Shown: one piece after another, positions 3,761 through 16,191 of the stretch
Layout of the letters: each line of letters starts with the position of its first letter
How positions within the stretch are numbered: position 1 is the first letter of the stretch
Notes under the pieces: generated by a model
What the model saw: the letters and a program-made list of their open reading frames with translations, nothing else
Databases searched by the model: none
What the model was told of the DNA's origin: nothing
Assembly (NCBI RefSeq): GCF_001465345.1
Contig: NZ_CP013655.1
Location: 1,563,349-1,627,348 of the forward strand
Source: Enterococcus rotai
Lineage (GTDB): Bacteria; Bacillota; Bacilli; Lactobacillales; Enterococcaceae
Length of the DNA stretch: 64,000 bases
Reading direction: 5' to 3'
Program-made: the position numbers and the translations under genes

Positions 3761-4498
3761 ATGAGAAATATCAGATTAACGATCGAGTATGATGGGACTA
3801 GGTATCTTGGTTGGCAAAGACTTGGTGATTCAGATAAAACGATTCAAGGGAAAATTGAAAATATCTTAACTCAAATGACACGCTCAAAAATTGAAATCAT
3901 CGGTTCTGGTCGAACGGATGCTGGAACTCATGCTAGAAACCAAATTGCGAATTTCAAAACAGAGAGTAAAATGGAACGAGTAGAGATGATTGAATTTCTA
4001 AATCGCTATCTTCCACAAGATATTGTTGTAAAAAAGGTTGAAGAGGTTCCTGATCGATTTCATGCTCGGTATAATGCAAAAGGGAAAAAATACAGCTATT
4101 ATGTCTGGAACGATTTGATTCCGTCAGCCTTTGAGCGTAACTATAGTTTTCACTATTCTGAAAAACTTGATGTTGAGTTAATGAACGAAGCTTGCCAGAA
4201 ACTGATTGGAACGCATGATTTTATTGGCTTTTCTTCTCTTAAAAAGACGAAAAAGTCAACGACTCGAACGATCAAAGAACTAGCAATTCAAAAAGAAGGG
4301 AGGCTGCTTCATTTTACCTTTATTGGAGATGGCTTCTTGCATAAAATGGTCAGAATCCTTATGGGGACAATTTTAGAAATAGGTGCTGGAACATTGAAGT
4401 TAGAAGTGATCGATGAGGTATTTGAAAGTAAAATCAGAAGTGAGGCTGGAATCACAGTGCCTGCCCAAGGGTTATTTTTAGACGAAGTTTATTATTGA
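3761..4498 (+). CDS. truA: tRNA pseudouridine synthase A (truA paralogue)
   Basis: A 245-residue TruA-family enzyme that isomerises uridines 38-40 in the tRNA anticodon stem. The catalytic aspartate is Asp53 in GSGRTDAGTHA, and GDGFLHKMVR and the start YDGTRYLGWQ are family hallmarks. The reading frame is open 10 codons further upstream, but the MRNIRLTIEYDG start matches the family and has a GAGGAG site, though at a rather long distance. It stands alone rather than beside the ribosomal-protein/ECF transporter genes where the main firmicute truA usually lies, so it may be a second copy; that is an inference. Confidence 0.9.
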   Translation: MRNIRLTIEYDGTRYLGWQRLGDSDKTIQGKIENILTQMTRSKIEIIGSGRTDAGTHARNQIANFKTESKMERVEMIEFLNRYLPQDIVVKKVEEVPDRFHARYNAKGKKYSYYVWNDLIPSAFERNYSFHYSEKLDVELMNEACQKLIGTHDFIGFSSLKKTKKSTTRTIKELAIQKEGRLLHFTFIGDGFLHKMVRILMGTILEIGAGTLKLEVIDEVFESKIRSEAGITVPAQGLFLDEVYY

Positions 4499-4508
4499 GT
4501 GTATTTAC

Positions 4509-4535
4509 TTAAACTATCACAAAGTGATAGTTTAA
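4509..4535. terminator. Short hairpin after truA
   Basis: TTAAACTATCAC and GTGATAGTTTAA form a perfect 12-bp stem with a 3-nt loop, 10 nt past the truA stop. There is no T run, so it may stabilise the 3' end rather than terminate. Confidence 0.45.
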
Positions 4536-4614
4536 ACAGAAATGCGTAGATAAAACTATTTTCTATGCACAAAGGTTTATCCTTTCTTTTAAATAAAATA
4601 TAGGACGCAATAGT

Positions 4615-4651
4615 AAAAGCCCAATCAACGAATACAGTGATTGGGCTTTTT
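4615..4651. terminator. Intrinsic terminator, usable in both directions
   Basis: AAAAGCCCAATCA pairs with TGATTGGGCTTTT and is followed by T residues. It ends truA transcription and could also stop the leftward transcript from the promoter at 5200-5228. Confidence 0.85.
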
Positions 4652-5133
4652 GTGCTGACCAGATACTCTCATTTTTATTTTTTTTAATTCGGATCAAAAG
4701 AGCTATTTTTTTCAGTTCTATTGTCAATTATACTTTTTTATTCTATTTATTGAATTAGTTGTTTCAGTTTGAACGTCTCTGTTTATTAGGGTTTCGAAGC
4801 ACTATTCTATTTTTCTGTCCTAAAAAAAGACTTATTAAAATAAGAACAATAAAAAATATATATTATTATAAGAATTGTTATTTCATCTTTTTTTTATATC
4901 TATAAGTAAATTGATAGGATAATAACTGGATGGAAAAACCGTATAATAGAGATATGAAAAAAAGTTCGTTTGAGATAGTTTAGATAAAAAACGGGAAAAG
5001 TAGAGTCAAATCTACATGGGAATTGAATCAAAATATGTGGGGAAAACATGTGAATTATTGGTCAAATTATTTTCTAACATCAGAATTGTGAAAAAATGAA
5101 CTATTTTTAGAACTGTAATAATGTATAAAAAAA
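4652..5133. other. AT-rich spacer without recognised genes
   Basis: About 480 bp of very AT-rich sequence between the truA terminator and the left recombination site. I see no reading frame with a ribosome binding site and no RNA structure. In the present orientation of the invertible segment, the outward promoter at 5200-5228 would transcribe this stretch on the minus strand. Confidence 0.5.
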
Positions 5134-5160
5134 CTACCTGTTTCAGCTAAGAACAGGTAG
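5134..5160 (+). repeat. Left recombination site (invertible segment boundary)
   Basis: Nine-base inverted arms (CTACCTGTT and AACAGGTAG) flank a 9-nt asymmetric spacer, TCAGCTAAG. This is the arm-spacer-arm design of a tyrosine-recombinase crossover site. Its central 25 bp recur exactly, in opposite orientation, at 6748-6772. Confidence 0.8.
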
Positions 5161-5199
5161 GATAGTAGATTTATTAAACTTAAATAACTTTCTGTAATC

Positions 5200-5228
5200 A
5201 TGATAACTGTTGTTTATCAAGATGTCAA
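5200..5228 (-). promoter_or_regulatory. Outward-facing consensus promoter inside the invertible segment
   Basis: On the minus strand, TTGACA (5228-5223), a 17-nt spacer and TATCAT (5205-5200) make a near-consensus sigma-A promoter. Transcription would start near 5193 and run left through the recombination site, away from the WxL operon. After inversion between the two sites it would lie at about 6679-6707 on the plus strand, about 180 nt upstream of the regulator gene at 6893. No gene is seen downstream of it in the present orientation. Confidence 0.7.
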
Positions 5229-5370
5229 CACGTTTTTTTATCCTATTCAACTTGTTTTAATGTACTAAATAACTTATTTCTATTTATTATATTTGAAATA
5301 AAAACTAACCAAAATCAAAAGAAAAGCTGAATTTTAAAAGAATATATGGTGGAAAAAACAAACAATTCTA

Positions 5371-5393
5371 TTCGCCGTCAAATTCGCCGTCAA
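5371..5393 (+). repeat. Tandem 11-bp repeats, possible recombinase arm sites (left)
   Basis: TTCGCCGTCAA occurs twice with a 12-bp period just upstream of the recombinase gene. A related pair with the same 12-bp period (CCGTC at 6688 and 6700) lies at the right end of the segment. Integrases with an AP2-like N-terminal domain bind such direct repeats; the assignment is inferred. Confidence 0.5.
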
Positions 5394-5412
5394 CTGAAAG
5401 TAGGGAAAATGG

Positions 5413-6507
5413 ATGTCACGAAGAGGAGAAAATATCTATAAACGAAAAGATGGCCGTTGGGAAGGTCGTTACATTAAAGGGAGAAAACTAAATGGATCAA
5501 TTCATTATGGGTATGTTTATGGTAAAAAATATTATGATGTCAAACAAAAATTGACTCTTATCAAATCTCAGCTTCCTTATTATCAAGAACAGATCATCTA
5601 TTCTTATAGTGGAACAGTACAAGAATGGGCTGCTTATTGGTTGGAAACATTTGTATTACCAACAGTTAAGTTGAGTACTTATGTAAGTTACAAAAGTAAA
5701 TTATCTGTGCACGTATTTCCACAGCTTGGAGAGATAAAATTAACTGAGCTAAAAAAAGAAGACGTTCAAACTTTAAGTGATCAATTAGAAGAAAAGCTTT
5801 CTGATGCATCTGTTCATGCTGTTTTTCGTGTTTTTCATACTTGCCTATGTGCAGCACAAGAAAATGAACTGATTCCTAAAAATCCAGTTGATACCGTTCG
5901 CTTACCCAAAATGGGAAAACGAGTTTCTAAAGCCTTGACTACTGGCGAACAAAAGCGTCTAAAACAAGTCGCAAATTCGTCTACTAATGGATTAGCTGTA
6001 TTAATTGCATTAGAAACAGGCATGAGAATAGGCGAAATTAGTGGGCTAAAATGGTCAGATATTGATTGGGAAAGACGAGAAGTTCATGTTAACCGTACGT
6101 TACAGCGGTTAACAGATAATAATGGAAAGAGTCAGATAGTAGAAGGCTTACCTAAAACAAGATCGTCTACTCGTGTGATCCCCTTATCTAAACGCTTGTA
6201 TCATCTGTTATGGAAACAAAAACATTCTTCAAAAGAGGCTTATATTTTAAGCAATACTGAAAAAAGTGTTGAACCTAGAGTAGTTCGTTACCAATTTAAG
6301 CAAATGAGCCAGGAGGCGGGATTGTCAGACGTGACCTTTCACACTTTACGCCATACGTTTGCGACGCGTTGTTTAGAAGCAGGAGTGAATATCGCGACGA
6401 TTAGTGCTTTATTAGGACATCGTTCTATAAAAATGACACTGGATGTCTATACACATTCTCTCCTTGCACAAGAAAGAGAAGCAATCGATCAAGTTTCTGC
6501 ATTTTAG
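5413..6507 (+). CDS. Tyrosine recombinase (integrase family) within an invertible segment
   Basis: A 364-residue phage-type integrase. The first 50 residues (KRKDGRWEGRY) resemble the AP2-like arm-binding domain, residues 65-150 the SAM-like core-binding domain, and the rest the catalytic domain with Arg205 (GMRIGEI), His310-x-x-Arg313 (HTLRH), His336 (LLGHRS) and nucleophile Tyr346 (DVYTHS). All catalytic residues are present, so it should be active. An AGGG site lies 7 nt before the start. Instead of sitting at the end of an excisable element, the gene is flanked by a 25-bp sequence in inverted orientation, which would make it an invertase of its own 1.6-kb segment. Integrase of a degraded island is the alternative. 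Confidence 0.9.
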   Translation: MSRRGENIYKRKDGRWEGRYIKGRKLNGSIHYGYVYGKKYYDVKQKLTLIKSQLPYYQEQIIYSYSGTVQEWAAYWLETFVLPTVKLSTYVSYKSKLSVHVFPQLGEIKLTELKKEDVQTLSDQLEEKLSDASVHAVFRVFHTCLCAAQENELIPKNPVDTVRLPKMGKRVSKALTTGEQKRLKQVANSSTNGLAVLIALETGMRIGEISGLKWSDIDWERREVHVNRTLQRLTDNNGKSQIVEGLPKTRSSTRVIPLSKRLYHLLWKQKHSSKEAYILSNTEKSVEPRVVRYQFKQMSQEAGLSDVTFHTLRHTFATRCLEAGVNIATISALLGHRSIKMTLDVYTHSLLAQEREAIDQVSAF

Positions 6508-6538
6508 TAGAATAGTAAAGAAATCGTTAATTTGATAG

Positions 6539-6581
6539 AACCCCTGAGTTAAAATTGACTGTTAATTTTGCTCTGGGGGTT
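6539..6581 (+). terminator. Long imperfect hairpin after the recombinase gene
   Basis: AACCCC-GAG-AAAATT pairs with AATTTT-CTC-GGGGGTT around a 7-nt loop. There is no T run, so it may act as an RNA 3' end or attenuating structure. Confidence 0.5.
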
Positions 6582-6628
6582 GGACTGTACACTTTGTATA
6601 ACTAAAGTTATTTAATCTGCTAGATTTT

Positions 6629-6671
6629 CCTTTTAGCTTTGCAAGGGAAACTAAAAGCGGCTTTTTTTTTT
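6629..6671 (+). terminator. Intrinsic terminator facing the WxL operon
   Basis: CCTTTTAG pairs with CTAAAAG(C)GG and is followed by C and a run of ten T. In the present orientation it would stop recombinase transcripts before they reach the regulator at 6893. After inversion it would sit at the far end of the segment. Confidence 0.65.
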
Positions 6672-6687
6672 GCCTTTTTTCTATTCA

Positions 6688-6704
6688 CCGTCAGCAGAGC
6701 CGTC
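6688..6704 (+). repeat. Paired CCGTC motifs, possible recombinase arm sites (right)
   Basis: TTCACCGTCAG and a degenerate AGAGCCGTCGT repeat the CCGTC core with a 12-bp period, as at 5371-5393. Inferred accessory binding sites for the recombinase. Confidence 0.4.
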
Positions 6705-6746
6705 GTTTGTTTTGAGAAAAGGATTCTATCAAGAAAACGGCGCTAC

Positions 6747-6773
6747 TTACCTGTTCTTAGCTGAAACAGGTAA
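6747..6773 (-). repeat. Right recombination site (inverted copy)
   Basis: TTACCTGTT and AACAGGTAA flank the spacer CTTAGCTGA, the reverse complement of the left site's spacer. The inner 25 bp are identical to the left site in inverted orientation, the geometry that yields inversion rather than excision. The downstream regulator gene begins 120 bp further on. Confidence 0.8.
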
Positions 6774-6892
6774 GGTTGAATCAGAAAGATTATTTTTCAT
6801 TTTAATAGATAAATGGAATTTTTACAAAAGAAACGCTAATAACACTTCGATAGAAACATAAAATAAATCAAATGAATTAGGAGGAAGTTGAC

Positions 6893-7642
6893 ATGTATCG
6901 TATAGGTATACTGGCATCCACGATGACGCCTTCACCTGACGTGTATAAAGCATTTGAAAAAATAAATTGTCAACTCGATCACCTTAAAGAAGTTCCAAAT
7001 TTTGAAAAGCTTCATACATATGACGGGTTATTGATCGAGGAAGTACACGAAGGAGCAATTAGTAGTGTTTGTTCTACTATCTTACAAATCAAACAACAAA
7101 CGAATGTTTACATATGGGTTTTATCTGGGAAATCAACATTAATCAATCGACAAGTATATCTACAACTGGGAGTAGATGGGAATTTTGATCAAGAAAGCTT
7201 TCCAGAAGAGTTACTCTTATATTTAAAGAACTTTCTATCACGTCAAGATGAACAGAGAAAAACACAACGAGCTGTGGTTGGAGGAAAAAAGAACGCCAAT
7301 CAAATCAGTACAATCGGAGAAAAACTTGAGATGGATCCTACAAATCACAGTTTGATTGTGTTTATAGGTGAGAAAGAAGTCGAAGTTGAATTGACTAGGC
7401 TAGAATATCGCTTACTCGAATTATTGTACAGTTATCCAGGAAAAGCATTTAATTACCAAGAAATACATGAAAACCTATGGAATAGCCCATATAAAGAAGA
7501 AAACTATCGCGTCGCCAATATTGTTTTTCACGTGCGGAAAAAACTGGAACGACATGACGTAGGATCAGAGTTTATAAAAACGGTGCGTTCAAAAGGCTAT
7601 ATGATCAAATTAGAGAATATTAAAAAAACGTCTAAAAAATAA
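6893..7642 (+). CDS. Winged-helix response-regulator-like activator of the WxL operon (ElrR-like)
   Basis: A 249-residue protein with a receiver-like N-terminal half (residues 1-115) and an OmpR/PhoB-type winged helix at residues 150-242 (ELTRLEYRLLELL, VANIVFHVRKKLE, TVRSKGYMI). There is no histidine kinase gene beside it, so it looks like an orphan regulator. It resembles ElrR, the activator of the elr WxL operon of Enterococcus faecalis. The start is fixed by AGGAGG 8-9 nt upstream. As first gene of the operon and first gene beyond the right recombination site, it would be the first to respond to an inverted promoter. Confidence 0.82.
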   Translation: MYRIGILASTMTPSPDVYKAFEKINCQLDHLKEVPNFEKLHTYDGLLIEEVHEGAISSVCSTILQIKQQTNVYIWVLSGKSTLINRQVYLQLGVDGNFDQESFPEELLLYLKNFLSRQDEQRKTQRAVVGGKKNANQISTIGEKLEMDPTNHSLIVFIGEKEVEVELTRLEYRLLELLYSYPGKAFNYQEIHENLWNSPYKEENYRVANIVFHVRKKLERHDVGSEFIKTVRSKGYMIKLENIKKTSKK

Positions 7643-7659
7643 AGGGGTTGGAGTCAATA

Positions 7660-8292
7660 ATGGGCGAAATAGCCAATAAAGAATCGAAGTTAGGCTATGT
7701 CTATCTTATAGAAGGCATCATTGCTGGAGCATGGATAATCTATTTATTAAAATTTTACTCTTTTTATCAAGAATCCTATTTTTATATAGACAAGCGGTTA
7801 TCGCTATTTATTCAGATGTTATCTTTTTTGAATAATAATTGGAATGAGGTATTTATCTATTTTATTCTAAGCTTTCTTTTGATAACTTGTACACTCTTTT
7901 TTAACTGCTTGCTATTCTTTATAAATAAAAAAGAGCAGCAAAAACATAAAGTTCTTTCAGTGTTTTTATACCTGAATTTGTTATGTAGTTTGTTTTTACT
8001 GATTAATATCTGTGGTTTCATCTTTGCGACTATTCTAATTTTAGCTTCGAGTTTAGTTTATATCATCTTTATTTTTTCAAAATTAAGTTCAGCTAGAGAA
8101 AAATTTGATTTTGAAGAAGGCGACGTTATTGAAGTGAAGGGTCCTTTTGAAACAAAGGAAGAAGCCCAAAGCGCAATAGAGTTATTTTTTAGTAAATGGC
8201 AAGAAGAAAAAATCATGTTAGACGAAGAAACTTACGTTGCTGCAGACGGTAAGTATTATGTAGATATCTATGTAGAAACGATAAATAAATAG
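7660..8292 (+). CDS. Membrane protein of the WxL operon, unknown function
   Basis: A 210-residue protein with about four membrane segments in its first 150 residues (roughly 10-30, 50-85, 100-115 and 118-140) and a hydrophilic C-terminal part with an FETKEEAQSA motif that resembles a small alpha/beta sensor fold. The ATG at 7660 is preferred over an upstream TTG because GGAG lies 6 nt before it. It sits 17 bp after the regulator gene and 39 bp before the DUF916 gene, so it is part of the operon. Possible roles are signal reception or anchoring of the surface complex; I do not recognise the family. Confidence 0.7.
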   Translation: MGEIANKESKLGYVYLIEGIIAGAWIIYLLKFYSFYQESYFYIDKRLSLFIQMLSFLNNNWNEVFIYFILSFLLITCTLFFNCLLFFINKKEQQKHKVLSVFLYLNLLCSLFLLINICGFIFATILILASSLVYIIFIFSKLSSAREKFDFEEGDVIEVKGPFETKEEAQSAIELFFSKWQEEKIMLDEETYVAADGKYYVDIYVETINK

Positions 8293-8331
8293 TAGTCAAA
8301 ACTTTTACAGTAAGGAGTAATCAAAATTTAG

Positions 8332-9396
8332 ATGAAAACAAATAAATTTATATATTTCGTTTTGTTTATGAGTTTGTTCCTTTGTTCATATCCTGACCAA
8401 GCACTAGCTAAAGGAGAATCATCCAATTTAGGCTATTCGGTTTCAGCAGTACACAACGGGAAACAAATTGATCCAGAAAAAAGTTATTTTTATATTCAAA
8501 CTGTTCCAGGACAAGAGCAGGTATTGAAAGTAAATGTCAGAAGTACACAAAAAGAGCCAATCAAAATCAAAGTATATACGACAAATGCTTATACAGGAGA
8601 TGGCGGGACGATTGAATATACTGAGGACGAGAAAGTGCTAGATCCGACATTAGTTCAACCAATTTCATCTATTGTGGAAGTTGAAACGCCTAGCATAACT
8701 GTTGAAAATTACGAGGAGAAAGAAGCAACCTTCAAACTAATGCCGCCAAATGAAAATTATACAGGTGTAAAAATGGGTGCCCTAGTTTTTGAACTCGATG
8801 ATGCTGAAAGTAAAGAGCAAGTATCAAGTAAATTTTCATACAGAATAGGATTGATCACCTCAGAAACTGGAGATGATTATAGAGACGCAAAAACACTAAA
8901 TTTACTAGAGGCGAAATCAACACTTAAACTTGGGAAAAAAATGATTTTAGCGACATTACAAAATCCAGAACCCAAGATTCTTGGTGATTTAGAGATAACA
9001 GCAGAAGTAAAAGAAAAAGATAATCAAACTATTTTAAAGAAAAAGAACGTAACAAATTATTCAGTAGCCCCTAATAGTCATTTTGAATTTGAGATAGATT
9101 GGGGAACAGGTGCTGTCAAAGCGGGAACATACACGATAGTAATGAATGCAAACAATGGATATTCTGATTGGCAATTTGAAAAAGATTTTACGATAACTGG
9201 TGACCAGGCTAAAAAGATGAACGAAGAAAGTAGTTTTAACATCATTACGCCAATTTGGATCAAAGTTGGAACAATTGTGCTGATGGTTGCTTTAGTCGTA
9301 ATTGTATTTTTTATTCTGATTAGAAGAAAGAAAATGGAAACAACCTGGAAAATCAGACGTAAAAAGCGTAAAAAGAAGAAAAAAGAGAGGAGATAA
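8332..9396 (+). CDS. DUF916/DUF3324 cell-surface protein, membrane anchored
   Basis: A 354-residue exported protein: signal peptide (residues 1-26, cleavage near ALAKG), a DUF916 domain at about 35-155, a DUF3324 domain at about 165-285, then one membrane helix (about 305-330) and a very basic cytoplasmic tail (KIRRKKRKKKKKERR). DUF916 proteins are the constant partners of WxL proteins in low-GC Gram-positives and are thought to bind peptidoglycan and hold WxL proteins at the surface. GGAG lies well placed upstream. A second such gene is at 10875. Confidence 0.88.
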   Translation: MKTNKFIYFVLFMSLFLCSYPDQALAKGESSNLGYSVSAVHNGKQIDPEKSYFYIQTVPGQEQVLKVNVRSTQKEPIKIKVYTTNAYTGDGGTIEYTEDEKVLDPTLVQPISSIVEVETPSITVENYEEKEATFKLMPPNENYTGVKMGALVFELDDAESKEQVSSKFSYRIGLITSETGDDYRDAKTLNLLEAKSTLKLGKKMILATLQNPEPKILGDLEITAEVKEKDNQTILKKKNVTNYSVAPNSHFEFEIDWGTGAVKAGTYTIVMNANNGYSDWQFEKDFTITGDQAKKMNEESSFNIITPIWIKVGTIVLMVALVVIVFFILIRRKKMETTWKIRRKKRKKKKKERR

Positions 9397-9401
9397 TGTA
9401 G

Positions 9402-9728
9402 ATGAAAAAATATGTAGTACTACTATTTTTTCTGATTGTTGGATTTGGAGCATTATACGGAGATAAGGTGGAAGCGGCCAGTAAAGCAGACGAAACAGAG
9501 CTGGGTATTACTTTTTTAAAAGGAGAAAATGTAGAACCAGAAATACCTATTATTAAAGCCCCCACATTGCCTATCGTAGATGTTCCAATACAGAGGGGTG
9601 GAAAGTTACCTTCTACAGGTGACTTAATTACTTCACTGATTTGGACAATCCTTGGCTGTTCTATAATTATTATTTTTGTTGGCGTTTATAGTTTGAAAAA
9701 TATTATGTTAAGACTATCATGGGAGTGA
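9402..9728 (+). CDS. Small LPXTG cell-wall-anchored protein of the WxL operon
   Basis: A 108-residue precursor with a signal peptide (residues 1-25), a short extracellular stretch of about 40 residues, the sortase signal LPSTG at about residue 67, a hydrophobic helix and a short tail. Tiny LPXTG proteins of this type are a standard member of WxL loci (as in csc and elr clusters). It begins 5 bp after the DUF916 stop with a GAGGAG site, so translation is probably coupled. The tail after the helix lacks the usual cluster of several basic residues, having only a lone Lys and Arg. Confidence 0.85.
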   Translation: MKKYVVLLFFLIVGFGALYGDKVEAASKADETELGITFLKGENVEPEIPIIKAPTLPIVDVPIQRGGKLPSTGDLITSLIWTILGCSIIIIFVGVYSLKNIMLRLSWE

Positions 9729-9735
9729 AAAATAG

Positions 9736-9960
9736 ATGATCGATTATTTATGGCTGTTTATATTAGGTGGCGTTGCAATTATATCATTAGTCTTTTTTCT
9801 AATGACGCTATCTAGAGATGTTTTTCTAGTTAAAAAATTAAGGAAAAAGAAACAGATTTTAGGATTAAACTTTGCTTTGCTATTTATTACATTAACTAGC
9901 TTAGGGTTGATTGCCTATCTGTTTGTCCTATTAAGAGATCAAATTGAGCTTTTACAATAA
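9736..9960 (+). CDS. Small two-helix membrane protein of the WxL operon
   Basis: A 74-residue protein with two membrane helices (about 4-24 and 42-68) joined by a basic loop (VKKLRKKKQIL), predicting both ends outside and the loop inside. It starts 7 bp after the LPXTG gene with a GGGAG site. No family is recognised. Its place between the LPXTG and WxL genes suggests a helper in assembly or anchoring. Confidence 0.7.
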   Translation: MIDYLWLFILGGVAIISLVFFLMTLSRDVFLVKKLRKKKQILGLNFALLFITLTSLGLIAYLFVLLRDQIELLQ

Positions 9961-10033
9961 TAAAATGAACAACTTATAACAGTAACTGTCACCAATCTAT
10001 ATTTATACGATCAAAACTAAGGATGGTATAAAA

Positions 10034-10759
10034 ATGAAAAAAACACTAATGATTACTTTATTGTCATCAGCAGCATTGATGTTATTTGCTACTTCAGCAG
10101 ATGCAAAAACTTTTGATGATCAAACTGATGTAGGGGTAAGTTTTAAATCTGATGGACCAAATGATCCAGGTAAAAACATACCTTATAAGGATAACTTATC
10201 TCTTGTATGGAAACCAGCAGCTTTCGAATTTGGGGAGCAAAAAGCTGTGGGGAACTCAGCGACATTCAGTAATATTGTAGAAGGTAACCAATACGTAGTT
10301 GTAAATGATGACAGAGCAGATGATGCATTAACTGGTTGGAAATTATCAGCTAAAATGTCTGAATTAACATCTGTTAGCGGTTCTAAAACGTTAGCATCTA
10401 AATTAACATTTAATTTAGGTGATGCTGAATCGTATAGAATCACTGATGATCCAACTGTACTTAATGATAAAAACGATTATATTGTAAATGATCCTAATAC
10501 TTCAGGTGTATTAGGTAAATTAGAAGATGCTGGTATCAAATTAGGCGATGGCGCAAGCAAATCTATCGAACTAGTAGCTGGTGACACTACAAGTAAAACA
10601 ATCTTGGGTAAAGAAAAAGCCAATGGTACTAAAGGCGGGGTTGCAACGCTAATTAAAGATACAAAATTAGTTGTAGCAGATGCTAAAAAAGATAACGCAG
10701 CAGGCGAGTCATTTACTGGTACAGTAACATGGACTTTAGATGATTTAGTAGGTAACTAA
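10034..10759 (+). CDS. WxL-domain surface protein
   Basis: A 241-residue secreted protein: signal peptide to about residue 24 (TSADAKT), then a WxL domain that fills the rest. The distal WxL motif is WTL at TVTWTLDDLVGN, the last residues of the protein, as is usual, and SLVWKPAAFEFGEQ is the proximal conserved region. WxL domains bind peptidoglycan non-covalently and hold proteins at the cell surface together with DUF916 partners. GGATG lies upstream of the start; a 73-nt gap separates it from the previous gene, so an internal promoter is possible. Confidence 0.9.
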   Translation: MKKTLMITLLSSAALMLFATSADAKTFDDQTDVGVSFKSDGPNDPGKNIPYKDNLSLVWKPAAFEFGEQKAVGNSATFSNIVEGNQYVVVNDDRADDALTGWKLSAKMSELTSVSGSKTLASKLTFNLGDAESYRITDDPTVLNDKNDYIVNDPNTSGVLGKLEDAGIKLGDGASKSIELVAGDTTSKTILGKEKANGTKGGVATLIKDTKLVVADAKKDNAAGESFTGTVTWTLDDLVGN

Positions 10760-10874
10760 AACACACACTAATTAATTAAAAAATAAAAAAAGTATAAATA
10801 TAGATTGTGTAGAGAGTTATTGTTATAAGTTGTTCATGAAAAAACGAGAAAAGAAACGAAGAGGTTTAGTACAA

Positions 10875-11903
10875 ATGAGAAAAAAAATAATATACGCGAT
10901 TGCTCTTTCTCTATTTTTCACTTTGTCTTATCCACTGCTAGGGAATGCTAATGAAAGTATAGCAGATGCAATTAAATATTTTTCTTATGAGTTAATACTA
11001 CCTGAGAATCAAAAAGATAAAACCCTTGGATATTATGATCTTTTAATAAATCCAAGAGAAAAACAAGAAGTTCAGCTAAAGTTAAACAATACATCGGATC
11101 AAGCTATGAAGGTGGATATTGAATTAAATAGCGCAAAAACAAATGGAAATGGTGTCATTGAATATGGACCAAGCGAATTAAAAGAAGATCCTTCGTTAAA
11201 GTATAATCTAGCAGAAATCATGAGCGGACCTTCTGAAATCACTGTACCGCCAAAAAGCAGTGAGAGTGTAACTTTTGTAATCAATAGCCCAATAGCACAT
11301 TTTGATGGGTATATTGCAGGTGGAATTCAGTTGAAACCAGTTGTGAAAACCCAACAGGCTCAAAATACCCAAGGGACGATCGTGAACAAATTTGCTTTTT
11401 TAATTGGCGTATTATTGAGCGAATCGGATACTCAAAAAATAAAACCTAAACTGAAATTAAATAATGTATCACTGAAATTAAAGGATGGCAGTTACACAGT
11501 CTTCGCGAATATCTCAAATACGGAAAGCATTTTTGTAGAAAAAATGATTGCCGATATTAACATTACTGAAAAAGATAAGAGTAAGAACTCTTTTGAATTG
11601 AAAAAAGAAGATATGCGGATGGCCCCCAATACTATGATGAATCTGCCAATTCCATTAAATAATCAAAAGGTAAATTCTGGTGAGTATACAGCGAATGTTA
11701 AAATCACCACAAAAAATGGTGGAAATTGGAACTGGGTGAAAAATTTTACCTTGTCAAAAGTTGAAGCAGAACAGATCAATAAACAACTAATGAACGAATC
11801 GGATTCTGGATTTAAATATTGGTTAATCATTATAATACTCGTTCTATTATTCAGTATACTGAGTGGTTTTATTATAAAAAGATGTAAGGATAGGGAGAAA
11901 TAA
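10875..11903 (+). CDS. Second DUF916/DUF3324 surface protein
   Basis: A 342-residue paralogue of the protein at 8332: signal peptide (residues 1-29), DUF916 region (about 35-145), DUF3324 region (about 165-295), C-terminal membrane helix (about 313-336) and a short basic end (KRCKDREK). The start at 10875 (MRKKIIYA) is chosen because it gives a normal signal peptide and has GAGG about 10 nt upstream; the frame is open 15 codons further upstream through a lysine/arginine-rich stretch. Two DUF916 genes in one operon suggest that each WxL protein has its own partner. Confidence 0.86.
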   Translation: MRKKIIYAIALSLFFTLSYPLLGNANESIADAIKYFSYELILPENQKDKTLGYYDLLINPREKQEVQLKLNNTSDQAMKVDIELNSAKTNGNGVIEYGPSELKEDPSLKYNLAEIMSGPSEITVPPKSSESVTFVINSPIAHFDGYIAGGIQLKPVVKTQQAQNTQGTIVNKFAFLIGVLLSESDTQKIKPKLKLNNVSLKLKDGSYTVFANISNTESIFVEKMIADINITEKDKSKNSFELKKEDMRMAPNTMMNLPIPLNNQKVNSGEYTANVKITTKNGGNWNWVKNFTLSKVEAEQINKQLMNESDSGFKYWLIIIILVLLFSILSGFIIKRCKDREK

Positions 11904-12007
11904 TTTTTAAAATGTATATTATGAGGAAGTGCTTCCCCAATAGAAAATTGTTTTCTCTTTTCAATTACTTTTTAAAGAAAAGTAGTTGAAAGTTGAAATA
12001 AAAAAAG

Positions 12008-12037
12008 TCTTCATTTTTTGTAAAAGTGAAGATTTTT
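12008..12037 (+). terminator. Weak hairpin between the DUF916 gene and the large surface gene
   Basis: TCTTCA and TGAAGA with extra A-T pairs inside are followed by TTTTT. It could reduce read-through into the 1057-residue gene. Confidence 0.5.
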
Positions 12038-12064
12038 ATATAAATAAAGAAAGGAGGAGAAAAA

Positions 12065-15000
12065 ATGAAAAAAATATTATGGAGTGGTTTAGCAAGTTCC
12101 CTTCTATTGATAAGCTGGGGCGTTTTTTCAAACAATAATAGTATCAAGGCGAAGGAAGAACCAGTGAAAGAAACGTCTGTAGTAAAAGATGAGTCTGAGA
12201 AGAAAATAGAAAAGGAATCTCCTCTAAAACCAGAGTCGAGAGCTGTTTGGGGGGCAAAACCAAGTGCACCACTTGCTACTTTTGGACCGACACGACCAGA
12301 TTTGTATAAATCTATGATTTCTGGTGTAGCTGAGAGTTTTCCTAATAAGTATTCGTTTCAGCCAAAAATTACTTCTTTAACAGAGTTATATAGAAAAAGA
12401 CCTGGAAGCGCCGAACAACTTATAAAGCCTGGATCATGGCCACCACTTGATAGTCTTAAACAAACAGATGTTGGGTACTATTTACTCGGTACCCATATGG
12501 GAATCAAAAATGGTCGTTGGCTTGATCTTAAATTAGAATATGTGGATACAGGTCCCGTGAAATCTACAACTGAAACAATTTCGGTAGGAGTATCAAGAAC
12601 TGTACCAACAGGTGGAGGGACAATTCATCTAGCATTTGCTGTAGCAACTTCAAAGAATACTGAGCCTATCTTTAGGATGAGTTTTATTGATCACGAGTCT
12701 GGGGAGCCAGTTAAAATGGATTCAGGGCATGTGACCTTTAATGATATTGATTATACCGAATGGATGAAAGTAACACCTACTGGTAGTGGAAAGTTTGATT
12801 ATATTTCAGCGAGAAATGATAATGGAATTTTAACGGACACAGCCATTTTCACGTCTGAACAGGTAACGATGATTTCACCAGAGGATTCAAATGTGGGTGA
12901 CGATGATTTTACACGTTTTTTCACCATAGGATATAGCGATGTGGATTCTCTAGATATTCAGTATTACACTGGCGGTACAGGAATCAATATATCGCAAGTA
13001 GAGGTGCCAGAAGCAATGTTTGAGTTAGAAGCGCCCAGTCTTGTTTCAGATGTGGATGGAAACTTAGAGGATGAAGTGATTACAACATCATTGATTCAAC
13101 CAATACCGTATCGATCATCACTAGGAAACTTATTATCTCTTGCATTTGAAGGGACTATTGATGATAGTCTGACTTTTAGCAGTTCAGATATTCAGATTTA
13201 TAATCGAGATGATCAGAATATTTCTACAAGTTTTATCACAGTAAAAGATTCTAAGAATCCGCAAAAATTTACAGTCGTAGCTAAGCCAGAGTATACAGCT
13301 ACCCTAGTTGATAAAACGGAACAGTTACGTGTGGATGTTAAAACGACACTTAATAAAACGAGTAATGCATACAAGAAATATCAGAATAACGCAACCGGAC
13401 AATTAACGATTCCTTTCCAGATGAAACTAAAATACAGCAATGCTGGCGGAGTTGATTCCGGTGTAATGAAAGAAGTAACCTCAAATATTGCTTTTGGACA
13501 TGTAAATTTGAAAAAAGCCACTATACACTACAAAAATGAAGCTGGAAAAAACTTACAAGCTTCCCAAACTAAATTAGGGTTTTTGGGAGAGAAAATCAAC
13601 TTTAGTGCACCAACTATCGAAGGATATAATTTGAAAATGCCTCAATCAGTTGATAGGGAAGCGATTTTTTCAAATACAGAACAGAACGTAGAGTATGTGT
13701 ATGAGAAAATAGTGCCTGAGGTAACACTCGAACAATCAGTAGACAAAGCCAAAGCTCAACCTGGTGAAAGCCTACATTATAAAATTGATGTTGGATCTGT
13801 TCAAGAAGCCACGAAAGATTTGGGCTCAAGTATAATATCCATTGAATATTTTAACGATCAGGGTCAAAAGATCAGTACAGATAGTATCCACGAATGGAAA
13901 AACGGAACAAGTTATGATTTCAGCGAGATACCAGCTCTGGAAGGCTTTGATAATGTTGGTGTAACAGCCTCTTCAAATGCAACCGGAACAGTTGCTGGTG
14001 ATGATATTGTGATTCGATTAAGTGGGTTTGAAGCAACTATGGACAATCTGGTTCAAAAGAAAGTTCGCTATGTTGATGAGAATGATCAATCGATCTCAGT
14101 TGATGAAATCTATTTGGGGAGAGATAAGTATCTTCCAAATTACTCAGTGAAAGCGAAAGTAATACCTGGCTATGCGCTAAGTGATGGAATAGAAAGCTAT
14201 CCGGTGATATTCAATGAAACCTCACCAGCTGAGTACGTATTTAGGTATCATTCAACTAGAAACTATCGTTCACTAAATATTACGGAGTTACTAGATATGA
14301 ATCTAGAAAATCCGACAAACTTTACATGGAAAACGAAAGATAATGTAGAGATTCCCAATGCTTCTGTTACTTATGATCAAATAAGTCGCAATATAACTGC
14401 AATACCACCAGCAGAGGGGATCGCTTATAATCATGAGTCAACCATTGAATTTGATGCAACAATTGTTTCTACACCAGTAGGCGATCTTATAAGCCAAACA
14501 GTGAACCTTAAAGCAGACTATCTAGTAGATGGTACAGTGGACATTTCAACAGATCCACCTACCAAAACACAAATAGTAACGGAATCACAAGTAATCGTTA
14601 CCTTTATAGATGATGGGACACCCCCTAGCAAAATAGCTAAAGATATAGTTTTTACGCAAGAAATAGGAACTGAAATTAATTTAGCACAAGAAAAAGCAAT
14701 TCAAGATACGATCGAAACGTTAAAGAAAAAGTATGTATTGCTAGAACCCCTACCATCTGAGATTGTTGAAGTGACAGATGAAGTGCAAACAATAGCCTAT
14801 AAATTTAGTGGTCGCTTGTTTATTGAGTCATTCCCATCAAACTTAACGTTCGGCGATAAATATCTATCAAAATCATTCATCAAAGAAGAACAACCTAAGT
14901 ATGATGCTCCGCTGATTATTGGCGACAATCGTCATAAGAAAACACCATGGACACTGACGGCAACACTAGAAAAACCTTTAACCAGTGAAGAAAGCCCAAG

Positions 15001-15238
15001 TGAAGTTCTTCCAAGAGCGCTGTGGTATAAAACCAGTAAAGGATCAAAAGTAATGTTATATGAAGGAGAGGCACAGCCCATTGAAACTGGCGCGGCTTCA
15101 CCATTAGGAGAATATAATATTAGTAAGAACTGGGATACTAATACTACAGGATTACAATTGAATGTCTATGCTAACGAGATCATTCAAAAAGGGGACTATA
15201 AAGCCTCGATTTTATGGCAAGTAAGTGCAACACCGTAA
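12065..15238 (+). CDS. Large secreted surface protein with MucBP-type domains and a degenerate WxL end
   Basis: A 1057-residue secreted protein with a signal peptide (residues 1-30), a charged linker to about 60, a large beta-rich region to about 480, MucBP-like repeats at about 482-550 (ATIHYKNEAGKNL) and 665-735 (VRYVDENDQSIS), and further beta domains to the end. The C-terminus, YKASILWQVSATP, has the position and shape of the distal WxL motif but reads W-x-V. GGAGG lies 7 nt before the ATG. As last gene of the operon it is likely the adhesin or ligand-binding part of the surface complex. No LPXTG or membrane anchor is present, so attachment would rest on the WxL-like domain. Confidence 0.82.
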   Translation: MKKILWSGLASSLLLISWGVFSNNNSIKAKEEPVKETSVVKDESEKKIEKESPLKPESRAVWGAKPSAPLATFGPTRPDLYKSMISGVAESFPNKYSFQPKITSLTELYRKRPGSAEQLIKPGSWPPLDSLKQTDVGYYLLGTHMGIKNGRWLDLKLEYVDTGPVKSTTETISVGVSRTVPTGGGTIHLAFAVATSKNTEPIFRMSFIDHESGEPVKMDSGHVTFNDIDYTEWMKVTPTGSGKFDYISARNDNGILTDTAIFTSEQVTMISPEDSNVGDDDFTRFFTIGYSDVDSLDIQYYTGGTGINISQVEVPEAMFELEAPSLVSDVDGNLEDEVITTSLIQPIPYRSSLGNLLSLAFEGTIDDSLTFSSSDIQIYNRDDQNISTSFITVKDSKNPQKFTVVAKPEYTATLVDKTEQLRVDVKTTLNKTSNAYKKYQNNATGQLTIPFQMKLKYSNAGGVDSGVMKEVTSNIAFGHVNLKKATIHYKNEAGKNLQASQTKLGFLGEKINFSAPTIEGYNLKMPQSVDREAIFSNTEQNVEYVYEKIVPEVTLEQSVDKAKAQPGESLHYKIDVGSVQEATKDLGSSIISIEYFNDQGQKISTDSIHEWKNGTSYDFSEIPALEGFDNVGVTASSNATGTVAGDDIVIRLSGFEATMDNLVQKKVRYVDENDQSISVDEIYLGRDKYLPNYSVKAKVIPGYALSDGIESYPVIFNETSPAEYVFRYHSTRNYRSLNITELLDMNLENPTNFTWKTKDNVEIPNASVTYDQISRNITAIPPAEGIAYNHESTIEFDATIVSTPVGDLISQTVNLKADYLVDGTVDISTDPPTKTQIVTESQVIVTFIDDGTPPSKIAKDIVFTQEIGTEINLAQEKAIQDTIETLKKKYVLLEPLPSEIVEVTDEVQTIAYKFSGRLFIESFPSNLTFGDKYLSKSFIKEEQPKYDAPLIIGDNRHKKTPWTLTATLEKPLTSEESPSEVLPRALWYKTSKGSKVMLYEGEAQPIETGAASPLGEYNISKNWDTNTTGLQLNVYANEIIQKGDYKASILWQVSATP

Positions 15239-15243
15239 AAATA

Positions 15244-15291
15244 AAGTAAGGATTATCCGTATGATCATGATCATACGGATAATCCTTACTT
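15244..15291. terminator. Perfect palindromic terminator between convergent genes
   Basis: A fully self-complementary stretch centred on ATGATCAT, with arms of 20 bases or more and T runs on both outer sides. It ends the WxL operon and the convergent esterase gene. Confidence 0.9.
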
Positions 15292-15318
15292 TTTTAATAA
15301 AATACGTATCAATTATTC

Positions 15319-16191
15319 TTAAAGGAAATCGTTGAAAAAAGCAAGTGCATCATTATTACACTGTCTTGCAATATCACTTTTTTGATTCAAATGAAAGACA
15401 TGTCCGAGCTCGGAATGATCTTGATTTGCGTAAAGACGGTAAGTTGTTTCAACGCCTCTAGACTGCAATAACGCTACCAATGGCTGGGCAAGATCTTTTA
15501 ACATATCGTGTGTAGCGGTTGTAACAAAAGTTGGTGGGAAACTGTCTGTGATATAACGCTCTACTGGAAACTGACTCTCCAGTGTGGGCGTGATTGTTTC
15601 ACCAAAGTAAAAGGGAAAGTCTTGATTAATAGCACCATTTTCTCCAATGAAATAAGCGCCACAGTTCAAAGCGACTGCCTTAAACTGGATGGCAGCAACT
15701 TTAAACGGAAAGTTTTGTGCATAAGCTGAGTTACTTGTTAGCGTAGCATATTGTTCTGCCAGTTGAGCGCCAGCACTATCACCAACTAAAAAGAGATGCT
15801 CTAAATCAATGTAGTAGCTTTGTCCGTGTTCAATCAACCAATTCATCAAAGCATTCGTATCTTCCAATGGAGCAGGATATTGATGATCAGGTGCCAAACG
15901 ATAATTGAAATTCACTACGGTAAAGCCTTGTGTTGCCAAATACATAGTATAAAAACGATAAAGTTCTTTGTCGCCATAGAAGAATCCACCACCATGAATA
16001 TTGATGATCGTGGGTAAACAGGTAGTGGTCCCTTTAGGATAATAAATATCAAACGTATTTTCAATACCGTATGGACCGTAAGATAAGTCTTTGATTATTT
16101 CTAGAGTATCTGGTTCAGTCAAACCAGCATCTCGTTTTTCATCATGTTCTCTTATTTGATTGCGCATTGTTGGAATGTCAAAATTTGCCAT
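15319..16191 (-). CDS. Alpha/beta hydrolase, hormone-sensitive-lipase type esterase
   Basis: A 290-residue cytoplasmic esterase. The oxyanion-hole motif HGGG is at residues 66-69, the nucleophile is Ser140 in GDSAG, the acid is probably Asp230 (TATHDMLKD) and the base His260 or His265 (DHSELGH). The spacing and HGGG place it in the HSL (bacterial family IV) group that hydrolyses short acyl or acetyl esters. No signal peptide. AGGGGG lies well before the start. It is monocistronic and convergent with the WxL operon. Natural substrate unknown. Confidence 0.9.
   Translation of the reverse strand: MANFDIPTMRNQIREHDEKRDAGLTEPDTLEIIKDLSYGPYGIENTFDIYYPKGTTTCLPTIINIHGGGFFYGDKELYRFYTMYLATQGFTVVNFNYRLAPDHQYPAPLEDTNALMNWLIEHGQSYYIDLEHLFLVGDSAGAQLAEQYATLTSNSAYAQNFPFKVAAIQFKAVALNCGAYFIGENGAINQDFPFYFGETITPTLESQFPVERYITDSFPPTFVTTATHDMLKDLAQPLVALLQSRGVETTYRLYANQDHSELGHVFHLNQKSDIARQCNNDALAFFNDFL

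Follow-up and report, generated by a model that had tools for sequence, protein, structure and literature searches.

Promoter inversion, tyrosine invertases and designs in which the recombinase gene lies inside its own segment are all already known. The Salmonella H-segment contains a promoter that reads outward and, in one of its two orientations, drives the neighboring operon; FimB and FimE are simple tyrosine recombinases without an arm-binding domain, encoded outside the segment, and the UpaE switch of uropathogenic Escherichia coli is of the fim type, while Bacteroides has other invertible promoters besides those controlled by the recombinase Mpi. In its account of these systems, PMC5903667 places the gene for Hin inside the invertible segment of the Salmonella flagellar switch and describes Mpi as a master recombinase, one serine enzyme for many loci; Hin is presented in PMC3798978 as a serine recombinase with a Fis enhancer. 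For Clostridioides difficile, PMC9286219 states that the flg and cmr switches depend on RecV, and describes the pdcB switch as a 174-bp element whose recombinase is not identified in that account. Pneumococcal PsrA is a tyrosine recombinase linked to inversions at inverted repeats in the cod/hsdS locus (PMC7096588), and the integrases of the IntTn916 subgroup possess an arm-binding domain of three strands and one helix (PMC8138268), which the abstract of that paper ties to mobility. The locus compared here with these systems lies in a 64,000-nucleotide stretch of Enterococcus rotai (contig NZ_CP013655.1, positions 1,563,349 to 1,627,348 of the forward strand; hereafter the window, whose own numbering is used below), where a tyrosine recombinase gene between two inverted sites precedes a WxL surface operon. 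Judged from its sequence and from that of its relatives, this cassette is very probably a self-contained promoter-inversion switch.

Anatomy of the window cassette

The elements of the cassette and its immediate surroundings are the following.

4615..4650, no strand assigned: hairpin terminator between truA and the cassette
5135..5159, plus strand: left recombination site (core), TACCTGTT-TCAGCTAAG-AACAGGTA
5200..5228, minus strand: outward sigmaA-type promoter, TTGACA-17-TATCAT, its -10 element 40 bp from the left site
5374..5380, plus strand: left arm-type motif GCCGTCA, first copy
5386..5392, plus strand: left arm-type motif GCCGTCA, second copy, 12 bp on
5413..6507, plus strand: tyrosine recombinase, 364 amino acids, Pfam Phage_integrase and SAM_3
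6539..6581, plus strand: strong hairpin in the stretch 6536-6600 (z -3.9; folded stretch -20.4 kcal/mol; no T-tract) directly after the recombinase stop
6629..6671, plus strand: weak hairpin followed by a long T-run, the terminator of the original prediction, no better than shuffles
6687..6693, plus strand: right arm-type motif ACCGTCA, about 60 bp from the right core site
6699..6705, plus strand: second, imperfect right motif, GCCGTCG
6748..6772, minus strand: right recombination site, exact inverted copy of the left site

The original prediction, made from the letters of the window, had started from an exact 25-bp inverted repeat with inverted arms around a 9-nt spacer, and both features hold: the two copies are exact and inverted, each consists of TACCTGTT, 9 nt and then AACAGGTA, and the site is unique, with no further occurrence at up to three mismatches in the 3,746,111-bp genome. 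Among exact inverted 18-mers at most 5 kb apart in the window, the site pair is also the only one that is not a hairpin, the others being close-set hairpins. The intact recombinase placed between the sites is equally borne out by its Pfam domains and by a full catalytic set (R205, K248, H310, R313, H336 and Y346), and this R-K-H-R-H-Y signature is complete in 147/147 copies of the family. By contrast, the terminator proposed at 6629-6671, facing the operon, is weak: a terminator scan of the region returned none, and it does not fold better than shuffles (z -0.11). The hairpin at 4615-4650 would, in the present orientation, also halt the outward transcript, and a scan of 4000-16000 at the Rfam gathering thresholds gave no match.

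In the mechanism proposed, the recombinase made from within the segment would bind the inverted core sites at 5135-5159 and 6748-6772 and flip the 1.6-kb segment; contacts of its N-terminal arm-binding domain with the GCCGTCA-type arm sites inside both ends would probably assist it. As the cassette now lies, the only strong promoter (5228-5200) would fire away from the operon, leaving the regulator (6893) and the following WxL genes OFF; after inversion it would occupy 6679-6707 on the plus strand, in agreement with the original prediction, 186 nt ahead of the regulator, and would read through the right site to turn the operon ON. The presumed benefit would be surface heterogeneity within a clone.

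The original prediction had read the locus as the switch of a WxL operon; the switch is supported, and it belongs to a family. A search of this genome returned nine full-length paralogues (E at most 1.5e-88, the next match being at 1.5e-18). At eight of these loci the recombinase is enclosed by a separate repeat of 19-34 bp, and a co-oriented regulator and surface operon follow immediately; no flanking repeat accompanies the ninth. Homologues are not confined to the genus, as they were recovered at E of at most 1e-60 in 37/105 genomes and 4/17 genera of the taxonomic family, the highest loads being the 26 recombinase matches in each of the genomes G035 and G027. Named relatives at 47-74% identity are found in E. 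crotali, E. rivorum, E. quebecensis and E. larvae.

Orientation and promoter position in sister cassettes

The comparison between loci draws on a homologue search within the genus that gave 193 matches in 22 genomes, all 22 of the genomes searched containing homologues. From the matches listed, 141 non-duplicate genus copies were taken; together with six plasmid copies they make up a set of 147, for which five duplicate rows were set aside and ten listed loci were left out; the frameshifted plasmid copy L096 was excluded by the length filter. In this last copy (E. raffinosus HG-5, 8992-10100) two open reading frames (ORFs) stand in place of one recombinase gene, and its switch may be locked. 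Since the copies share descent, the counts that follow are not independent trials. An exact flanking inverted repeat of at least 17 bp, taken as the longest exact inverted match between the 600-bp flanks, is present in 107/147 copies against 0.58% of controls in which flanks of different loci were paired, and the core sites are palindrome-like (score 5.09 vs 2.12 when shuffled). The repeat-bearing set used below (n = 112) was picked by a repeat length of at least 14 and by position. For the other genera of the family, 43 copies were examined of 140 matches (15 genomes, three genera), picked for long contigs, G035 alone contributing 26 of them.

With a score computed over a fixed 130-bp stretch (hand-set weights, threshold 9.5), an outward promoter is present no more than 130 bp from the left site in 82/112 repeat-bearing cassettes; the -10 element ends 25-75 bp from the site in 74 of these 82 (median 46), and the spacer is 17 bp in 73. 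The same score passes the threshold in 6/112 cassettes for the right end outward, in 8/112 for the left end inward and in 3/111 between the right site and the operon, three control positions that are at or below chance because 7.2% of single shuffles reach the threshold. The pattern recurs in the three other genera, where the outward left-end promoter is present in 33/33 cassettes and promoters at the right end or beyond the right site in 0/33 and 0/33. This conserved outward promoter, together with the rarity of the control promoters, indicates that a cassette in its usual orientation has no conserved element firing into the operon, and that inversion would place the promoter there.

The same figures bear on the opposite assignment of the two states, in which the present orientation is ON, because transcription of the recombinase gene continues past the right site into the operon, and OFF is the inverted state. 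The recombinase gene and the operon do point the same way, a weak promoter might precede the recombinase, and the terminator at the window locus is weak; nevertheless, inward left-end promoters score no better than shuffles (mean 5.85 vs 6.33), the outward ones are conserved, promoters inside the right end or ahead of the operon are rare in the genus and absent from the 33 cassettes scored in the other genera, and terminator-like hairpins follow the recombinase on the reading strand in 72/112 cassettes against 5/112 shuffled sequences (37/112 on the opposite strand). This assignment is therefore very unlikely.

Direct evidence for inversion comes from sister cassettes. In genome G021, the ends of a 3.84-Mb contig overlap by about 40 kb (C1:1-40121 and 3802241-3842361, with loci L182, L183 and L221-L224), and three compared pieces of the overlap, about 37 kb in total, are 99.9% identical; the two copies of the locus differ by cassette inversion only, between flanks that are 99.96% identical, and the arms of the two sites, which differ from each other, have exchanged partners in the inverted copy, the outcome predicted for a crossover within the 14-bp core that both sites share. 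The overlap is apparently an untrimmed circular assembly built from different reads; even if it were a true duplication, an inversion would still be needed. The G008 cassette is inverted with respect to its orthologous flanks in 6/6 relatives (G004, G003, G012, G005, G001 and G014). Finally, the paralogous loci L293 and L288 of G035 share a 4.3-kb cargo-side flank (87% identity), relative to which their cassettes (84%) lie in opposite orientations. The anatomy of the cassette, its conservation and the inversion of sister cassettes are thus directly shown, and the occurrence of sister cassettes in both orientations makes it most likely that the window cassette belongs to a large set of independent on/off switches for the surface of these bacteria.

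The precise G021 inversion, inside the core and with unchanged flanks, also largely refutes the idea that the cassette is a small mobile element, bounded by terminal inverted repeats and encoding an integrase, that jumps in front of operons and whose orientation differences are re-insertions. What speaks for such an element is the resemblance of the enzyme to the Tn916 and Tn1549 integrases and the situation in E. raffinosus megaplasmids, where the cassette of L098 is 79% identical to those of L094, L095 and L096 (about 8725-10122) and the identity of the flanks is 90-99%, a pattern that would fit an exchange of whole cassettes. Core sites, in contrast, differ between most loci, and the cargo is mostly a surface operon at a fixed position (102/113 with a labelled operon), so that re-insertion is an extremely improbable explanation. 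Searches of phages and plasmids by tblastn gave relatives, seven Enterococcus plasmid matches among them, none of which shows an inversion; no strain-level flips were found in the E. raffinosus plasmids either, and plasmid searches with the G032 loci returned only partial matches for L304 and L305 (35% and 29% of the query, respectively) and none for L306 and L307.

Several observations weigh against the reading of the window cassette as an active promoter switch. Regarding its structure, 35/147 copies have no repeat that passes the length and position filter; 11 of these 35 keep the arm motif on both sides, and some of them may consequently have imperfect repeats. Regarding the promoter, 30/112 cassettes have none above the threshold at the left end, the inverted locus L108 itself falls below it (best score 8.6), and a sigma-70 consensus scan of the region around the cassette gives nine matches, a chance level when shuffles give 10.3 +/- 3.9. 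The outward consensus promoter of the original prediction is the best of these nine and is conserved across loci; the count in the region adds nothing to it, and its support comes from the comparison between loci. Regarding orientation, 102 of 113 repeat-bearing rows point toward a labelled operon, two point away and nine have other or unlabelled cargo; in the other genera the first gene downstream is on the same strand in 40/43 rows, L293 being inverted and L313 and L315 ambiguous. All eight cassettes of this genome and the two close orthologues of the window cassette, in G014 and G003, share one orientation, as do the four E. raffinosus strains at an accessory-Sec locus (L094, L095, L096 and L098), and in the L293/L288 pair the other flank is unalignable beyond the site, so that this case is supported from the cargo side only. 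Comparison of sister genomes, which had been proposed as a check, therefore gives both orientations for the family (G021, G008 and G035) and a single one for the window locus (G014 and G003). Given this strong skew, flipping at the window locus could be rare or lost. If the toward orientation is OFF, most sequenced cultures are OFF at most loci, for which biased recombination, selection or infrequent flipping may each be responsible.

The skew of 102 to 2, and the single orientation in all strains and orthologues compared at the window locus, would fit a frozen or hardly flipping cassette whose recombinase is kept as a DNA-binding regulator or as a relic. This possibility also receives some support from a monophyletic clade of 17 recombinases (support 0.993), formed by L046 (G000:C1:1193430-1194524) and 16 syntenic loci elsewhere, which retain intact catalytic residues and lie mostly behind a WxL-interacting protein gene; no repeat was found at the usual places in this clade and no paired arm motifs, CCGTCA occurring near an end in 1/17. 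The clade is a candidate frozen or repurposed branch. The window copy falls outside it, on a separate branch, and keeps exact repeats, which are long in 107/147 copies; with catalytic residues that are universal and three independent cases of inversion, a frozen window cassette is unlikely. The promoter switch in its OFF orientation, as originally proposed, is accordingly retained as the best reading, on account of relatives in both orientations, a conserved left-end promoter and eight of nine paralogues of the same design.

Recombinase, arm-type motifs and core sites

The enzyme looks like an arm-binding recombinase of the integrase type with a Tn916-like N-terminus, as far as predicted models can indicate. 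Its predicted domains are arm-binding (about residues 1-60), core-binding (about 65-170) and catalytic (about 175-364), and the predicted N-terminus contains strands at 8-10, 16-24 and 30-37 followed by a helix at 40-57, the strand-strand-strand-helix order of the arm-binding fold in the IntTn916 subgroup. Pfam gives no match for residues 1-71, and the N-terminus folded alone yields a poor model (predicted local distance difference test score, pLDDT, of 55). The integrase of Tn1549 is the best structural match by Z score (23.2; root-mean-square deviation, rmsd, 2.6; 268 residues) and also heads the sequence-profile matches, while lambda integrase is first by Foldseek E-value and, including its arm domain, aligns over residues 1-340 with a large rmsd. 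As the solved Tn1549 construct is devoid of the arm domain, the N-terminal assignment rests on predicted secondary structure. The Pfam Phage_integrase domain, which is of the tyrosine type, speaks against a Hin-type serine invertase, and the NCBIfam tyrosine-type DNA invertase models, at 28.9 and 27 bits with cutoffs of 222 and 221, speak against a FimB/FimE-type invertase. At L316 (G092:C28:84400-96000), two recombinase genes are in tandem.

A k-mer search of the cassette ends recovered GCCGTCA in 87/112 left and 89/112 right ends, where 0.1 and 0.5 are expected. Inside the segments (120 nt into the annotated ORF being allowed, because ORF starts are uncertain), CCGTCA is found on the recombinase strand in 109/112 left and 106/112 right ends, and on the other strand in 4/112 and 1/112, respectively; CCGTCAA in the outer flanks is limited to 0/112 left and 2/112 right. 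The motifs form pairs 10-13 bp apart at 91 left and 52 right ends of the 112, and 155/158 right-end motifs begin 45-70 bp from the right site. In this genome, GCCGTCA-N4-5-GCCGTCA occurs five times, always at switch cassettes (four of the eight), the reversed control pattern being absent, and in the other genera CCGTCA is present in 28/33 left ends, 28/33 right ends and 0/66 flanks. By their position near the core sites, these motifs would correspond to the arm-type repeats that mark the IntTn916 subgroup.

The arm motif is common to nearly all cassettes, whereas the core sites differ between most loci. In the protein, the mean identity among the eight repeat-bearing paralogues is 81% for residues 1-25, 57% for residues 1-60, 34% for the core-binding and 51% for the catalytic domain. 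Site similarity correlates with protein identity for the core-binding domain (Spearman 0.36), the catalytic domain (0.39) and the N-terminus (0.25); this correlation is modest and no lower with the catalytic region, so that a two-part addressing of the sites rests mainly on the contrast between the shared arm motif and the variable cores. Some core-site pairs of this genome are similar (up to 0.68, on their own scale), and cross-talk between them is possible. In G035, core-site strings are common to L283 and L284, and to L282 and L285; recombination between such loci could rearrange the genome.

Taken together, these sequence comparisons somewhat favor a broader scenario, in which a Tn916-type integrase would have been domesticated in enterococci into modular promoter switches with two-part addressing, a combinatorial surface code and an arm-site bias to OFF. 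Under this scenario, GCCGTCA pairs one helical turn apart would be read by the nearly invariant N-terminus and the private core of each locus by the divergent core-binding domain; there would be up to about eight independent binary switches in this genome, with up to 26 recombinase copies in others, and the arm sites, being asymmetric and in direct repeat, would tilt every switch to OFF. The resulting code would comprise WxL complexes, giant LPXTG adhesins, accessory-Sec systems and cell-wall hydrolases.

Surface cargo and known systems

The operon downstream of the window cassette contains the following genes.

6893..7642, plus strand: regulator with a Trans_reg_C winged-helix domain, first gene of the operon
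7648..8292, plus strand: membrane-type protein without Pfam or NCBIfam match, with relatives in other switch-linked WxL operons
8332..9396, plus strand: WxL-interacting protein (WxLIP_PGBD and WxLIP_HBD)
9402..9728, plus strand: small LPXTG-type protein resembling the EF2685/EF0750 family (41.5 bits, under the 47-bit cutoff)
9736..9960, plus strand: small membrane-type ORF
10034..10759, plus strand: WxL-domain surface protein
10830..11903, plus strand: second WxL-interacting protein
12065..15238, plus strand: large surface protein with a MucBP domain

The presence together of a WxL protein and a WxL-interacting protein identifies a WxL surface locus. Other cassettes precede different cargo: an accessory-Sec operon, a ChW/GA-module protein, a pectate-lyase-like adhesive protein, a giant Big_6 LPXTG protein on an E. 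faecalis plasmid, a leucine-rich-repeat protein and a glucosaminidase/M23 protein. Their common theme is the cell surface, with several of the cargo proteins being without Pfam match. The E. faecalis case (L100; plasmid LR962555, 6648-25736) has the cassette before a 1554-residue Big_6/LPXTG protein on a plasmid typed as mobilizable; among plasmid records, 147 match this region, one of them, L100's own, with at least 80% coverage, and the other 19 records listed share only its first quarter, outside the cassette.

If the switch reading is correct, the clonal diversity of the enterococcal surface would have a simple and countable genetic basis, readable from any long-read assembly, and WxL genes seemingly silent in a reference culture may simply be OFF-oriented. 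The natural series of related recombinases, with matched cores and one shared arm motif, would be useful for studying site choice by tyrosine recombinases, and the cassette family for understanding how an integrase can become an invertase. Searches of the open-access literature, most subscription papers being outside its scope, showed no description of switches of this kind for Enterococcus or for any WxL locus; PMC9244547, the single paper in which 'invertible promoter' and 'WxL' both occur, does no more than cite Jiang et al. 2019. Within that literature, and with an earlier description being possible, it is the combination that appears to be new: an integrase of the arm-binding type, arm sites inside the segment, locus-specific cores and many copies per genome, at WxL and other surface operons of enterococci.

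Each of the known systems shares part of this design. As in the Hin system, both the recombinase gene and the outward promoter lie inside the segment, but the serine enzyme and Fis enhancer of Hin are replaced here by a tyrosine recombinase, arm-type sites and many copies per genome. C. difficile likewise provides a Gram-positive case of invertible promoters near operons, and its cultures show both orientations in the account of PMC9286219; here, in contrast, each switch has its own enzyme and mostly its own site. The many inversions for surface products within one genome recall Bacteroides, although the organization differs from the Mpi regime in being decentralized, with one tyrosine recombinase per locus. 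Fim-type switches also use a tyrosine recombinase to invert a promoter segment for a surface adhesin, and differ in the location of the enzyme, which is inside the segment here, and in the arm-binding domain predicted for it. With PsrA the cassettes share a tyrosine recombinase and inverted repeats in a Gram-positive host, but a promoter is inverted instead of hsdS genes being shuffled. Finally, whereas the best-characterized integrases of the IntTn916 subgroup move phages and transposons, according to PMC8138268, an enzyme of this kind appears here to serve a fixed switch, the invertible promoter cassette.

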